A stretch of DNA of 64,000 nt, from positions 3,481,001 through 3,545,000 of the forward strand of contig NC_009675.1 of NCBI RefSeq assembly GCF_000017505.1. Reading direction: 5' to 3'. Source of the DNA: Anaeromyxobacter sp. Fw109-5. GTDB taxonomy: Bacteria; Myxococcota; Myxococcia; Myxococcales; Anaeromyxobacteraceae. The notes beneath the pieces are model-generated. The model had not been told where the DNA came from. It made no database searches and saw only the letters and a list, made by a program, of their open reading frames with translations. A program made the position numbers and the translations under genes. Every line of letters starts with the position of its first letter. Position 1 is the stretch's first letter. Below, piece after piece: positions 29,258 to 39,191 of this stretch.

Positions 29258-31852
<2,595 letters not shown>

Positions 31853-31964
31853 CGGATGCACCTGCGCATTCGACCACCTCGCCCCGGCGACATCAAGCGA
31901 GCGCCCGCCTCGCCGGCGCCCCATCGTCGACTGGTTTCCACGCTCGACCTGCTAGACTGCGGGC

Positions 31965-32145: not shown

Positions 32146-33090
32146 ATGAGCCACCGCTTCTCCCCGCGCCGGGCCATCGGGCGCACCGGCTTCGTCGCCA
32201 CCGCGCTCGGCGCCGGGGATCTCGCCGACCGCTCGGTGCCGAAGGAGCGCTGCGTCGCCACGCTCCGGCGCGCCCTCGACGCCGGGCTGAACGTCGTCGA
32301 CACCGCGCCCATGTACGAGGACGGCTACTCGGAGGAGATCGTGGGGGAGGCGCTCCGGGGACGTCGCGAGGCGGTCTTCCTGGTGGACAAGATCGACCAC
32401 CTCGATCGGCCCGTCGCGCCCCAGCTCGACGAAAGCCTCCGCAGGCTCGGGCTCCCGTCGGTGGACCTCCTCGTCCTGCACTCCTGCTCGGAGCCCGCGG
32501 CGTGGGCGCGAGCGAGGTCGCGCGGAGGCGCGATGGAGGAGCTCGGCGCGGAGGTCGCGCGCGGGCGGGCGCGGCTCCGCGGGATCTCGTCGCATCACCC
32601 GGACGTCCTCGCGGACGCGATCGCGTCGGGGCTCTGCGACGTCGTCATGTTTCCGGTGGGCCCGTACTGCCATCCGCGCTACGTGGACGAGCTCCTCCCG
32701 GCGGCGCGGTCCCGCGGGGTGGGCACGATCTGCTTCAAGACCTTCGGCGCCGGGAAGCTCGTCGCCGACACCGAGGGCTACGGCCGGCCCCTCTCGAAGC
32801 GGCCGCGCGGGAAGGTGTCGTCCGGCGGCGAGGACGGCGCGCGCCCGGTGCTGCCGCACCTGTCCGTCGCGGAGTGCCTTCGCTACACCCTCACGCTGGA
32901 CCCCGACGTCGCCCTGCTCGGGCTCTCGTTCCCGAACGAGCAGGACGCGGCCTTCGACGCGGCTGCCGCCTTCCGCCCCATGACCGCGGCCGAGCTCGCG
33001 GCGACCCGGGATCGCGCGGCGGAGGCCATCCGCGGCAAGGGCGAGGTGTGGTGGAACCCGCACCCCACCCCCGAGAGCACGGTGCGTTGA
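32146..33090 (+). CDS. Aldo/keto reductase
   Basis: A 314-aa TIM-barrel oxidoreductase. AKR features include GRTGFVATALGAG near the start, LDAGLNVVDTAPMY (catalytic Asp/Tyr region, near 45-58), LVDKIDH (Lys) and LLVLHSCS (His). A YEDGYSEEIVGEALRG segment follows the Tyr. The C-terminus contains GLSFPNEQDAAFDAA in place of the usual NADPH-binding GxxxxxQ-like motif, so cofactor and substrate are uncertain. It is followed after 48 bases by the ABC transporter operon on the same strand. Confidence 0.83.
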   Translation: MSHRFSPRRAIGRTGFVATALGAGDLADRSVPKERCVATLRRALDAGLNVVDTAPMYEDGYSEEIVGEALRGRREAVFLVDKIDHLDRPVAPQLDESLRRLGLPSVDLLVLHSCSEPAAWARARSRGGAMEELGAEVARGRARLRGISSHHPDVLADAIASGLCDVVMFPVGPYCHPRYVDELLPAARSRGVGTICFKTFGAGKLVADTEGYGRPLSKRPRGKVSSGGEDGARPVLPHLSVAECLRYTLTLDPDVALLGLSFPNEQDAAFDAAAAFRPMTAAELAATRDRAAEAIRGKGEVWWNPHPTPESTVR

Positions 33091-33138: not shown

Positions 33139-34662
33139 ATGACCCTCGACGACCCAGGACGCGCCGCGCGCCGCGCCGGCCCCGGCGGTGACGAGCGACC
33201 GCTGAGCGCTCCCGCCGCGCCGCCCGCGCTGACCCTCTCCGGCGCCGGGAAGCGCTACGGGCAGCGGGAGGCGCTCCAGCCCCTCTCGCTCGCCATCTGC
33301 GCGGGCGAGCGCGTCGCCGTGGTCGGGCCGAGCGGCGCCGGCAAGTCCACCCTCCTCCGGCTCCTCGCCACCTCGCTCGCGCCCTCGTGCGGCTCGGTGG
33401 CGGTGCTGGGCCACGACGTCGCGGCGCTCTCGCCGCGCGCCCTGCGGCGCCTCCGCGCCCGCATCGGGACGGTGCACCAGCAGCTCCACCTCGTGCCGCA
33501 GGCGAGCGTGATGCAGAACGTGGTCGCGGGCCGGCTCGGGCGCGTGTCGCTCGCGCGGGCGCTCGCCTCGCTCGTCTCGCGCGAAGAGGCGGCGCGCGTC
33601 GCCGCCGTGCTCGCCGAGGTCGGGATCGCCGGCCGCCTCCACGACCGCGTGGACCGGCTCTCCGGCGGCGAGCAGCAGCGGGTCGCCATCGCGCGCGCCC
33701 TGTACCAGGATCCCGAGATCGCCCTCGCGGACGAGCCCATCGCCTCCGTGGACCCCACCCGCGCCTCCGAGCTCGCGGCGCTCCTCGCGCGCGCCTTCGC
33801 GGGGCGCACGCTCGTGGTGACCACGCACCGCCTGGAGCCGCTCCTCCCGGTGGTGACGCGCGTCGTCGGCCTGCGGGACGGCGCGCTCGCGTTCGACAAG
33901 CCGACCGCGGCGCTCACGCTCGACGATCTGTCGCGCCTGTACGCCTCGCGCCGCGGGGCGCCGGCGCCCCGCTCACCCACCGCCGCTCCGGCCGCGGCCG
34001 CGAGCCCCGCCGCGCCCGCCGGCGTGCTCGCGCTCGGCGCCTCGAACACGCCGGGCGAGTTCGTGCTCCCCCGCGCGCTGCGCGCGTTCGTGCGGGATCA
34101 TCCGGGCGTGCGGGTGAGCCTCGCGGTTAAGGATTCCGCGGAGGTGACCGCGGACCTCCTGGCCGGCCGCATCGAGGTCGGGTTCGTCGGGGCGCGCTCC
34201 CCCCACCCCGAGCTCCACTACGAAGACCTCGTCGAGGACGAGATCGTGCTCGTGGCCTCGCCGGCGCTGGAGGGGATCTCCCCGGAGCCCATCTCGCCCG
34301 CCGACGCGGCCCGCCTCCCGCGGGTCGAGCGAGAGGCCGGCTCGGGCACCCGCGTCGTCGTCGAGGAGCACCTCGCCAACCTGGGCGTCCCCCTCGATCC
34401 CGCCGCGGTGGCGCTCGAGGTCGGCACGCTGGCCGGGCTCAAGGCCGCGGTCCTCTCCGGGGTCGGCGTCGCGTTCACCTCGCGCCTCGCGGTCAGGGAG
34501 GAGCTCGAGCACGGGCACCTGCGCGTGCTCCGGCTCGAGGGCGTGCGCATCCCGCGGCGACTCTTCGTGGCGTGGCGGCGCGGCGCCGCGCCGAGCCCCG
34601 CGGCCCGCCGCTTCGTCGAGGTCGCCCGCGCGTCGCTCGCGCACGCGGCGGGGCGCGCATGA
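33139..34662 (+). CDS. PhnC-type ABC ATPase fused to a LysR-type ligand-binding domain
   Basis: A 507-aa fusion. Residues about 30-255 form an ABC ATPase of the phosphonate-importer type: Walker [10 protein letters not shown] (63-71), signature [15 protein letters not shown] (near 173), Walker B IALADEP (near 193), switch His in VVTTHR (near 229). After an Ala/Pro linker (about 268-293) comes a complete LysR-type substrate-binding domain ([20 protein letters not shown] near 294; [40 protein letters not shown]) without any helix-turn-helix. The domain could sense cytoplasmic ligand and inhibit transport, as C-terminal domains do in MetN and ModC; this is inference. Its stop overlaps the permease start (ATGA). 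Confidence 0.88.
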
Positions 34663-36371
34663 GCCCGCGGCGCCCGCCGCTCCCGGCGCTCCTCTCCTGG
34701 CCGGGCCTCGCCCTCGCCGCCGCCGTCGGCCTTTCGTACCGGCTCGTGGACGGCGACCTCCGCGCGCTGCTCGCGGCCGACGCCCGCCGCGCCATGAGCG
34801 ACCTCGTGCGCGGCTTCTGGCCCCCCGCGCACAGCCCCGAGTTCCTGTCCTTCCTCGTCCGTCCGCTCGCGGAGACCGTCGCCATCGCGTTCCTGGGGAT
34901 GTCGCTCGCGCTCGCCCTCGCGGCCCCCCTCGCGTTCCTCGCCGCCTCCCCGCGCGTGCTCTCGGCGGGGGGCGAGCGGACGCCGTGGCCCCGCCGCGCC
35001 GCCTGGCTCGCCGCGCGGGTCGCGCTGAACCTGATGCGCTCGGTGCCGGAGCTCGTCTGGGCGCTCGTGCTCGTGCGCGCCTTCGGGCTCGGGCCGCTCG
35101 CCGGCGTGCTCGCCATCGGGATCGGCTACGCGGGCGTGCTGGGGAAGGTCTTCGCCGAGATCTTCGAGTCGGCGCCCCGGGCGCCCGCCGCGGCGCTCGC
35201 GGGCGCGGGCGCGCCGCCCGCGAGCGCCTTCGCCTTCGGCGTCCTCCCCTCCACCCTCCCGCTCCTCGCCTCGTACGCCCTCTATCGCTTCGACTGCGCG
35301 CTGCGCGCCGCCGCCGTGCTCGGGCTGGTCGGCGCCGGCGGGGTGGGCGTCCAGCTCGAGCTCTCGCTCAAGATGTTCGCCTACGACGAGGTCGCCGCGA
35401 TGGTGATCGCGCTCTTCGCCCTCGTGGCAGGCGTGGATCTCCTCTCCCAGCGGGTGCGCCGCCGCATCCACCTGAGCCGCGGCCTCTTCCCGCTCGGGCT
35501 GGGGGCGCTCCGCCTCCGCCTCGTCGCGGTCGCCGCCTGGGTGGTCGCGGCCTTCGGCGCGGCGCGGGTGCTCGCGCTCTCCTGGAGGGACGTCCTCTCC
35601 CCCGGCGCGTTCGCGAGCGTCGGCGCGCTCGCGGGCGCGATGTGGCCGCCCGATCTCGACCCGGCGTTCCTGCGCCAGCTCGCGCCGGCCGCGCTCGTCA
35701 CGCTCGCCACGAGCGTGCTCGGCACCGCGATCGCCGCGCTCGTCGGCCTCCTGCTCGCGTACCCGGCGGCGTACCGGATCCACGCCGTCGATGGCTCGGC
35801 CGGCGGGTCCGCGGCCGGCCGCGCCGCGGTCGCCGCCGCCGCCTGGCTCGCCCGCGGTCTCATGAACCTGGGACGGACCCTTCCCGAGCTGCTCTGGGCG
35901 CTGGTCCTCATCTTCGCTGTCGGTCTAGGCCCGTTCGCGGGGGCGCTGGCGCTGGGGATCCACACCGCCGGGGTCCTCGGGCGGCTCTACGCCGAGGCGC
36001 TCGAGGAGGTGCCGCTCGCCCCGTCGTCCGCCCTGCGCGAGTCCGGCGCGGGGGACGCCGCCGCCTCGATCTTCGCGGTGCTGCCGCAGGCGTTTCCTCA
36101 GCTCGTCGCCTACACGCTCTACCGCTGGGAGGTGAACATCCGCGCGTCCGCCGTGCTCGGCGTCGTGGGCGCGGGCGGGCTGGGCGGGCTCCTCCACGTG
36201 TCGCTCAACCTCTTCCACCACCACCGCACCCTCACGCTGCTCGCCGTGACCGTGCTCCTCGTCACCGGCGTGGATCTCCTCTCCGGCGCCATCCGCCGGC
36301 GCATCCTGGAGGGCCCGCCGGCCGAGGCGCGCCGGGCGCCCGAGACGCCGGTGATGGCGGACGCCTGGTGA
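34659..36371 (+). CDS. Phosphonate-type ABC permease, two PhnE domains in one chain
   Basis: A 570-aa membrane protein, twice the usual PhnE length, with two homologous permease halves (about 1-285 and 290-570). Each half repeats the PhnE pattern: LMRSVPELVWALVLVRAFG... with LPSTLPLLASYALYRFD in the first, LGRTLPELLWALVLIFAVG... with LPQAFPQLVAYTLYRWE in the second. Both contain a V-x-G-A-G-G-[VL]-G motif. The single chain would replace the homodimer usual in this family. The start overlaps the ATPase gene stop by four bases. It forms the membrane pore of the importer with the flanking ATPase and binding protein. Confidence 0.88.
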   Translation: MSPRRPPLPALLSWPGLALAAAVGLSYRLVDGDLRALLAADARRAMSDLVRGFWPPAHSPEFLSFLVRPLAETVAIAFLGMSLALALAAPLAFLAASPRVLSAGGERTPWPRRAAWLAARVALNLMRSVPELVWALVLVRAFGLGPLAGVLAIGIGYAGVLGKVFAEIFESAPRAPAAALAGAGAPPASAFAFGVLPSTLPLLASYALYRFDCALRAAAVLGLVGAGGVGVQLELSLKMFAYDEVAAMVIALFALVAGVDLLSQRVRRRIHLSRGLFPLGLGALRLRLVAVAAWVVAAFGAARVLALSWRDVLSPGAFASVGALAGAMWPPDLDPAFLRQLAPAALVTLATSVLGTAIAALVGLLLAYPAAYRIHAVDGSAGGSAAGRAAVAAAAWLARGLMNLGRTLPELLWALVLIFAVGLGPFAGALALGIHTAGVLGRLYAEALEEVPLAPSSALRESGAGDAAASIFAVLPQAFPQLVAYTLYRWEVNIRASAVLGVVGAGGLGGLLHVSLNLFHHHRTLTLLAVTVLLVTGVDLLSGAIRRRILEGPPAEARRAPETPVMADAW

Positions 36372-36591: not shown

Positions 36592-37443
36592 ATGCACCGC
36601 CTCACGCGCATCCTCGCCGTCACCCTCTCCCTCCTCCCGCTCGCCGGCATGGCCCAGGAGCCCCTCCGCGTCTCCGCCATCCCCGACGAGTCCCCCACCG
36701 AGCTGCAGCGCAAGTTCGGGCCGCTCGGGAAGTACCTCGAGCGTCAGCTCGGCCGTCCCGTGAAGTTCACCCCCGTCACGGACTACGCCGCCACGGTCGA
36801 GGGGCTCGCCGCGGGCAAGCTCGACCTCGTCTGGTACGGCGGCTTCACCTTCGTCCAGGCACGGCGACGGACCGGCACGGCCATCCCCCTCGTCCAGCGC
36901 GAGGAGGACGCCCGCTTCCACTCCAAGTTCATCGTGCCCGCCGCCTCGAAGGCCCAGCGGCTGCAGGACCTGAAGGGCGCGACGTTCGCGTTCGGCTCGG
37001 TCAGCTCCACCTCCGGCCACCTCATGCCGCGCTACTTCCTGCTTCAGAACGGGATCGACCCCGACCGCGACTTCGCGAGGGTGGCCTACTCCGGCGCGCA
37101 CGACGTGACGGCGAAGTGGGTGGAGGCCGGCAAGGTGGAGGCGGGCGCGCTGAACGAGTCGATCTGGCAGCGCCTCGTCGACGAGAGGAAGATCGACCCG
37201 TCGAAGGTGCGAGTGCTGTGGACCACGCCGGAGTACCACGACTACAACTGGACGGTCCGCGGTGACCTCGACCCCAAGCTCGTCGAGAAGATCCGGGCCG
37301 CCTTCCTCGCGCTCGATCCCGCGAACCCGGAGCACGCGGAGATCCTGGAGCTGCAGCGGGCGAAGCGCTTCATCCCCACCTCGCCCGAGAACTACGCGGC
37401 CATCGAGCAGGCCGCCCGGGCCGCGGGGTTGCTGAAGGACTGA
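36592..37443 (+). CDS. PhnD-family ABC substrate-binding protein (possible selenate/oxyanion binder)
   Basis: A 283-aa periplasmic protein. The signal peptide MHRLTRILAVTLSLLPLAGM ends near Ala-Gln. The mature part begins LRVSAIPDESPTELQRKFGP and contains VTDYAATVEGLAAGKLDLVW, GGFTFVQARRRTGTAIPLVQ and FGSVSSTSGHLMPRYFL, the PhnD-type fold. From memory, the DESPTELQ and YGGFTFVQA blocks resemble a subfamily annotated as a putative selenate ABC transporter binding protein, so phosphonate is not the safest substrate guess. It lies 220 bases after the permease. A REP-like hairpin follows the stop. Confidence 0.85.
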   Translation: MHRLTRILAVTLSLLPLAGMAQEPLRVSAIPDESPTELQRKFGPLGKYLERQLGRPVKFTPVTDYAATVEGLAAGKLDLVWYGGFTFVQARRRTGTAIPLVQREEDARFHSKFIVPAASKAQRLQDLKGATFAFGSVSSTSGHLMPRYFLLQNGIDPDRDFARVAYSGAHDVTAKWVEAGKVEAGALNESIWQRLVDERKIDPSKVRVLWTTPEYHDYNWTVRGDLDPKLVEKIRAAFLALDPANPEHAEILELQRAKRFIPTSPENYAAIEQAARAAGLLKD

Positions 37444-37530: not shown

Positions 37531-37747
<217 letters not shown>

Positions 37748-38080: not shown

Positions 38081-38245
38081 CGCTCCGACGTCCGCGGTAC
38101 GTCGAGAGCACGTACCTCGCGAGCGCAGGCAGGCCGCGCCGTGCGCGTCCGGCGCGCCGCGTGGACGGCGAGGGGCTGGCCCGGAAAACGGCGCAGGCAC
38201 GATCCTGGCGCGTATCCGAAGGGGCCGAAATCGCGTGTTACGAAG

Positions 38246-38264
38246 GGTGCACAGGAGGTGCACC
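38246..38264 (+). promoter_or_regulatory. Hairpin with Shine-Dalgarno in its loop (HNH copy 1)
   Basis: GGTGCAC, loop AGGAG, then GTGCACC, ending immediately before the ATG at 38265. The loop is the ribosome-binding site itself. The same arrangement occurs in copy 2 at 61090-61109. Confidence 0.7.
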
Positions 38265-39191
38265 ATGCCCGCTGTCGCCCCTTCCGCCCTCGACTCGACC
38301 CTCCTCGCCCAGCGCCTGCGCGAGCTCGCAGGCCAGGAGCGCGACGTCCAGGTCGAGTTCCTCCTCCACCTCGAGGAGTTCGATCGCCGCCGCGCGTACG
38401 TGGACGCCGGCTACCCCTCGCTCTGGGCGTATTGCCTGGAGGTGCTCCACCTTCGCGAGGGCGCGGCCGGGCGACGCATCCAGGCGATGCGGGTGCTGCG
38501 CCGGTTCCCCAGTCTCGAGGGCGCGCTTCGGGATGGCCGCCTTTGCATCTCCACCGTCCAGCTGCTCGGCCAGGTGCTGACCGAGGAGAACCTGCCCGAC
38601 CTCGTCGCCCGGGCCGCCTACCGCACCAAGGCCGAGGTGGATCACCTCGTCGCCTCGCTCCAGGCGCGCACCGCTCCGCGGACAGGCGTGCGCAAGCTGC
38701 CCGACCGCGCCTCAGCCGCGAGCGCCCCGGCGCTGCCGCTGGCGGCAGTGGATGCCGGACCTGCCGAGCCGCAGGAGGCGATCCCCGTGCCTCGGGCGGC
38801 TGCTGGTGGGTCGCCGGCCACGGTTTCCGCCCCACTCGACCCGCCTCGCCCGAAGGCGCGGGCGGAGACCCGCGCCGAGCGAGAGCGACTGGTCGCTGCG
38901 GGTCACCATCGACGCGTCCTGCAAGGAGGACCTCGAGACGCTCACCGCGCTGCTCTCGCACAAGATCCCGGACGGCGATCTCGCGGCGGTGCTCCGCGAG
39001 GCCACGCTCTGGGGGGTCCCTCGACTCTCGACAACGTCCGGCTCGCCTGCAAGCCCCATAACCTGTTGCACGCCGAACAGACCTACGGGCGCGAGCACAT
39101 GGCCCGTTTCCGTCGCATAGGCGTCGCCGGGGCGACGCCAGATGCCGGCGGGGCGCCACCAGCGCCGCAGCAGGCCCTGTGGGGACCGTGA
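38265..39191 (+). pseudogene. HNH endonuclease family gene, copy 1 (catalytic core deleted)
   Basis: The frame is open for 308 codons from the ATG after the Shine-Dalgarno hairpin, but the product is damaged. The N-terminal 200 residues (MPAVAPSALDSTLLAQRLRE onward) are intact, including a helical segment of about 60 residues absent from copy 2. Relative to copy 2, two bases are missing after 38877, shifting the frame. Then 238 bp including the HNH motif are missing near 39004-39015, which restores the frame for the end (GGPSTLDNVRLACKPHNLLH). Residues between are out of frame. No HNH nuclease activity is expected. It may still make the N-terminal domain, possibly DNA-binding. Confidence 0.75.

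Follow-up and report, generated by a model that had tools for sequence, protein, structure and literature searches.

An ABC importer ATPase fused to a LysR-type effector domain in Anaeromyxobacter, a candidate selenium-status sensor on a putative selenium importer

The stretch of DNA considered here (the window, 64,000 nucleotides in length) comes from Anaeromyxobacter sp. Fw109-5, whose genome of 5,277,990 bases forms one contig. At 33139..34662 on the plus strand the window contains 507 codons in one frame with no interruption, encoding a 507-aa protein in which an effector domain of the LysR type is fused to an ABC importer ATPase. The stop codon of this gene is overlapped by the ATG of the next (ATGA at 34659-34662), which encodes a permease of 570 aa with two PhnE units in tandem on one chain (34659..36371, plus strand; TIGR01097 matches twice). 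The permease is followed at 36592..37443, again on the plus strand, by a periplasmic substrate-binding protein (SBP) of 283 aa with a signal peptide, which matches the Pfam family Phosphonate-bd and the model TIGR04553, ‘putative selenate ABC transporter SBP’, with 373.5 bits. The operon holds a single ATPase gene. The same permease and SBP adjoin the fusion in every other fused genome with a long enough contig, with the SBP sometimes found on the opposite strand.

An aldo/keto reductase, recognised by Pfam, is encoded just upstream of the fusion (32146..33090, plus strand) and is probably outside the transport system, since no genomes but the two closest relatives (loci L096/L015 and L099/L016) have it next to the fusion. 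Further upstream, on the minus strand at 29258-31924, is a hybrid sensor kinase with Cache, HAMP, PAS, HisKA, HATPase_c and receiver domains, which has no obvious link to the operon. Just 3' of the SBP gene a GGTCGG-like 6-base unit is repeated in about 36 tandem copies with 90% matches (37534-37747), an array that gives rise on the minus strand to long frames of Asp-Pro or Thr-Pro. Beyond it, at 38238-39191, lies a frame that by eye looks like an HNH-endonuclease-type gene, perhaps decayed, whose central portion reads in a different frame (38752-39120); neither piece has a Pfam match. Between 31500 and 38500 no Rfam family matched at its gathering score, so no riboswitch was seen, and no sigma-70 promoters or terminators were found by a consensus scan, which is uninformative for a high-GC genome.

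Within the fusion protein, Pfam places ABC_tran at residues 46-202 (E 2.3e-34) and LysR_substrate at residues 292-500 (E 7.6e-47), with no match to the HTH_1 DNA-binding domain. The preliminary description of this DNA had proposed a one-gene fusion ending in a LysR effector domain that lacks its DNA-binding part, and on both counts it is borne out; the fusion is a genuine single protein architecture, supported by its single frame, by Pfam and NCBIfam matches and by conservation in 13 genomes. The ATPase domain (about residues 35-270; 33241..33948, plus strand) has every catalytic motif, namely a Walker motif (ten residues, letters not shown) at 63, the signature LSGGEQQR at 174, Walker B/ADEP at 194, an SVDP D-loop at 203 and the H-loop histidine at 230. 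It had been called PhnC-type, a label that is right insofar as PhnC is its best NCBIfam model but that goes too far as a family assignment, the score of 203.8 bits being under the cut-off of 266.1. A Pro/Ala-rich linker of low conservation (about residues 271-290; 33949..34008, plus strand) leads to the LysR-type effector domain (residues 292-500; 34012..34638, plus strand), which appears to have a selenium-type pocket.

The AlphaFold2 model of the fusion (mean pLDDT 83) consists of two confident domains and a disordered stretch at 272-290, where pLDDT is below 50; with a pTM of 0.50, the placement of one domain against the other is not predicted. The LysR part has the fold of the YeiE effector domain (7erq_A), with a Z score of 25.4 and an rmsd of 2.1 across 199 residues at about 30% identity. 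Against the two nearest relatives, NG86 dN/dS lies at 0.17-0.26 in the ATPase and at 0.13-0.16 in the LysR domain, with 0.87-1.73 in the linker. These ratios indicate that both domains are under purifying selection whilst the linker is relaxed, a pattern consistent with two kept domains on a free tether.

The fusion is present, with a match over its whole length, in 13 of 195 Myxococcota genomes belonging to five genera and two families. The carriers comprise all nine genomes of the genus, where the close relatives by name are Anaeromyxobacter soli and A. terrae, and the remaining carriers represent two further genera in this family and two in a second family. The hosts form a small set of Anaeromyxobacter-related bacteria from soil and sediment. 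The 12 further proteins are 48-82% identical to that of the window, and full-length fusion frames were read in all carriers except G037, whose contig ends inside the gene. No fused protein was found among 15 ATPase orthologs from Pseudomonadota (E<=1e-50; 398 genomes), nor among the 39 genomes with orthologs in the phylum of G197 (95 genomes). A mobile or plasmid-borne origin was dropped, as the PLSDB plasmids gave no tblastn match to the fusion at E 1e-30. In the ATPase tree the clade of fused proteins also contains unfused ATPases from G042 and G046, and one from G187 on a long branch; in G046 the frame ends directly after the ABC domain. Because the unfused G042 and G046 proteins nest among the fused ones, the tree suggests one fusion event with later losses of the LysR domain. 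In G102 (L103:5848-8583) the fusion frame is open upstream into GGDEF and PilZ domains, giving a 911-aa frame of GGDEF-PilZ-ABC-LysR. If this were one protein, an internal start also being possible, c-di-GMP-type domains would be tied to the same ATPase.

What the LysR-type domain may bind can be approached through its model scores and its pocket. Scanned alone, the fused domain of the window scores 146.7 bits with the selenium-associated LysR model NF040786 (LysR_Sec_metab), 105.9 with the YeiE model and 70.0 with phn_lysR, and all four fused domains scanned in this way have NF040786 as best model and the same order, 29-41 bits above YeiE. The NF040786 match covers model positions 90-295 and is below the full-length cut-off of 250 bits, which is unreachable because the HTH part is absent. 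The pocket reads A301-S302-x-T304-P305, G351 and S402-x-T404-R405, and A301, P305, G351, S402, T404 and R405 count among its invariant residues. The S-T-I-G motif of YeiE has become S-x-T-P-G in most fused domains, with Pro305 in place of the isoleucine, and Glu145 of YeiE is replaced by Gly351; Pro305 and Gly351 are invariant in 13/13 fused proteins. A highly conserved proline special to LysR_Se has been reported in the substrate-binding domain (Lin et al. 2015, PMC5322559), and in our reading Pro305 is that proline.

The two changes occur together in three of 55 stand-alone LysR loci (L062, L063 and L066), and of the 55 only these three lie within 1.5 kb of a tested selenium gene. L062 adjoins YedE, with a Se/S-carrier-type gene beyond, L063 adjoins a TIGR04553 SBP and L066 adjoins SelD. 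The 55 loci are a small sample picked by NF040786 similarity, and in some of them the motif was missed by the pattern, none of those being beside a tested selenium gene. With three stand-alone genes behind it, the pocket signature may be taken as a lead to a selenium role and not as a law. In Pseudomonadota, by contrast, numerous LysRs that pass the NF040786 cut-off (L148-L172) retain the Ile/Glu pocket of the YeiE type, and around the ones examined a distance of 1.5 kb included none of the selenium genes tested. The NF040786 model may be too broad, and on account of these proteins its cut-off alone was not used as proof of a selenium role. In the LysR tree the 13 fused domains form one clade (support 100/99) whose nearest neighbours are sub-cut-off LysRs (93/91), and the selenium LysRs do not join it. 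The fused clade is thus not inside a supported selenium clade, which counts against a selenium role, and descent from any named LysR clade was set aside since the tree gives no resolution.

The solved structures nearest to the domain are those of the YeiE effector domain, both sulfite-bound and sulfite-free. YeiE binds sulfite (PMC12880088) and, since the nearest solved fold is this sulfite-binding domain, an oxyanion ligand is plausible for the fused domain by analogy. With the same architecture the ligand could be a sulfur oxyanion, the domain acting like YeiE as a sensor of sulfite or sulfate and closing the importer, for example for telling sulfur from selenium, or with the importer itself serving a sulfur oxyanion. 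Such a sensor would agree with the S/T-x-T and GSGTR oxyanion loops that have been kept. We nevertheless consider it unlikely, since the glycine for Glu145 and the proline for the neighbouring isoleucine in every fused protein are as found in selenium-linked LysRs, NF040786 beats the YeiE model in all four domains scored, the SBP is of the TIGR04553 type and selD adjoins the locus in relatives. The ligand that we favour is a selenium-status anion, and for the HrsM regulator selenophosphate has been proposed as the signal (PMC11097638).

For the importer, the selenium reading is favoured by the SBP, which is over the curated TIGR04553 cut-off of 250 bits, and by the setting expected for this family, in which a PhnC-type ATPase and a PhnE-type permease adjoin the SBP. 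TIGR04553 matches at E<=1e-60 occur in 22 Myxococcota genomes (21 over the cut-off), every one of which has selD, compared with 151 of 195 overall; because the counts are uncorrected for relatedness, this co-occurrence is modest evidence for selenium. The selD gene adjoins the transporter locus, beside the SBP, in one fused case (G099) and in 5 of the 15 Pseudomonadota orthologs, and in L137 the gene order is SBP, SelD, MnmH, all over their NCBIfam cut-offs. The window genome has selA over the cut-off (545 bits) and a selD of 397 bits with TGA where L137 has the catalytic Cys, and is predicted from these genes to make selenocysteine. Against the selenium reading, the operon of the window genome was not seen to adjoin any selenium gene, and TIGR04553 is a hypothetical equivalog of which no member was found that had been shown to carry selenium. 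Reviews state that a Se transporter of high affinity is not known (PMC9312934, PMC11097638). TIGR04553 SBP genes also occur in L104 (G040) and L109 (G100) with no orthologous ATPase or permease nearby.

The ATPase, permease and SBP all belong to the PhnCDE superfamily and the fused domain does match the aminoethylphosphonate LysR model (70 bits), as might be expected if the system imported phosphonate, phosphite or hypophosphite and the ATPase-linked sensor recognised that substrate. This is quite unlikely, given that the SBP reaches 172.4 bits with the PhnD model against a cut-off of 261.1 and that the ATPase also misses the PhnC cut-off, while TIGR04553 passes, and that selD or mnmH adjoins the locus in relatives. 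PhnJ of the C-P lyase has no match in the window genome, the control search in E. coli being positive, an absence that bears on the C-P lyase route, this enzyme not being required for every phosphonate user. A phosphonate/C-P lyase importer was rejected on the absence of PhnJ and the two missed cut-offs. From these scores and gene neighbourhoods, selenium is a more probable substrate of the importer than phosphonate.

On a modest balance of probability, we favour a selenium-oxyanion importer in which the ATPase is allosterically governed by the selenium status of the cytoplasm, where the substrate, the ligand, the direction of control and the dimer arrangement are what we infer. The importer would be made up of the ATPase-LysR fusion, the PhnE-PhnE permease and the TIGR04553 SBP, and would carry a selenium oxyanion. 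The LysR domain would be cytoplasmic, presumably paired on the two ATPase copies, and would bind an anion that reports selenium status, either selenophosphate, the product of SelD, or imported selenite or selenate. Binding would change the ATPase cycle, most likely by trans-inhibiting uptake when intracellular selenium suffices, so that the selenium already in the cell would directly limit its own further uptake. Inhibition seems the most likely direction, from which the present data do not separate activation. Selenium is needed in traces and toxic above them, and for this reason rapid control of its uptake would make sense. A more specific proposal, that a selenium-status sensor of the LysR type has left gene regulation for the direct allosteric control of a dedicated selenium importer, with selenophosphate as its ligand, is put forward only tentatively.

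LysR effector domains normally dimerise, and the fused domain might act on transcription, pairing with and sequestering a stand-alone LysR by analogy with MalK and MalT. The SBP of the fusion locus in G102 does adjoin a separate LysR gene whose product passes the NF040786 cut-off (L103:12837-13700), but the other fusion genomes are without a LysR over that cut-off, and control of this kind is very unlikely. Even less probable is a ligand-free structural add-on that stabilises the ATPase dimer or anchors it. The motor can evidently work without the domain, which would be dispensable to it since the orthologous G042 and G046 ATPases lie among the fused ones and lack it. The pocket residues are, however, among the invariant positions, and the low dN/dS of the LysR domain against the nearest relatives likewise speaks against a passive role. 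Finally, there is practically no chance that two genes were merged by an assembly frameshift or that the fusion is dead. Nothing was found in favour of either, and both conditions that the preliminary description had set for its refutation, a frameshift and absence of the fusion from relatives, are contradicted, since the same fusion is an open frame in the 12 other genomes, five genera being represented in all, purifying selection acts on both halves and the permease start overlaps the stop codon of the fusion.

The fusion joins a candidate selenium importer and a relative of a selenium LysR regulator in one expressible unit, which opens both to direct testing. If the allosteric selenium scheme is true, the domain would give direct access to a selenium importer of high affinity as well as to the ligand of the LysR_Se/HrsM regulators, and LysR effector domains would join the small set of sensors that control importer ATPases.

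Among known systems, the closest by SBP is the TIGR04553 ‘putative selenate’ group of PhnD-like importers, to which the system belongs as judged by its SBP family and which has the same ATPase, permease and SBP neighbours in Pseudomonadota. The Pseudomonadota orthologs sampled differ in that their ATPase is not fused and that the permease is mostly split between two genes. By score the system would not be classed as PhnCDE, nor the fused domain as a LysR_Sec_metab equivalog, as it has no HTH and misses the cut-off. The LysR_Se/HrsM/NF040786 regulators nevertheless provide the best-scoring model for the domain and, in our reading, share with it the conserved proline of the first pocket loop. 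Unlike them, the fused domain has no DNA-binding domain, is carried on an ATPase and is below the full-length cut-off. The effector domain of YeiE is alike in fold and differs in the glutamate and isoleucine that are replaced here and in belonging to a protein with an HTH.

Regulation through the C-terminus of an importer ATPase has been described for MetN and ModC, whose C-terminal domains mediate trans-inhibition by substrate (PMC10710835). The position of the regulatory domain is the same, whereas the folds differ, being a small C2 domain in MetN and different again in ModC, and neither is of the LysR type. A LysR-type sensor in this position had at first been thought undescribed. The architecture is conserved, and no description of an ATPase-LysR fusion was found in the published literature, this being weak evidence drawn from open-access texts only; NrtC and CmpC do, however, set a precedent for a type-2 binding-protein-like domain. 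These ATPases of the cyanobacterial nitrate/nitrite (NrtABCD) and bicarbonate (CmpABCD) importers likewise carry at their C-terminus a cytoplasmic domain of the binding-protein type, regarded as a solute-binding regulatory domain, and they are the first and fourth Foldseek matches of the fusion (9u9z_C and 8wm7_C), with alignments that span more than one domain and are the best two-domain matches. Truncation of the C-terminal domain of NrtC leads to ammonium-insensitive uptake, so that the domain is needed for ammonium inhibition (PMC6603209), and the binding-protein-like domain of CmpC is thought to be regulatory (PMC11349869). The NrtC/CmpC domain is about 400 residues long and homologous to the system's own SBP (NrtA/CmpA), whereas that of the fusion is a LysR effector domain (PF03466) of about 210 residues, from another sequence family than its SBP (PF12974). 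NrtC and CmpC also pair with a second, plain ATPase (NrtD/CmpD), in contrast to the single ATPase gene found here. NrtC and CmpC are thus the closest precedent, with the difference that the sensor of the Anaeromyxobacter fusion comes from transcription regulators and not from the SBP of its own system.
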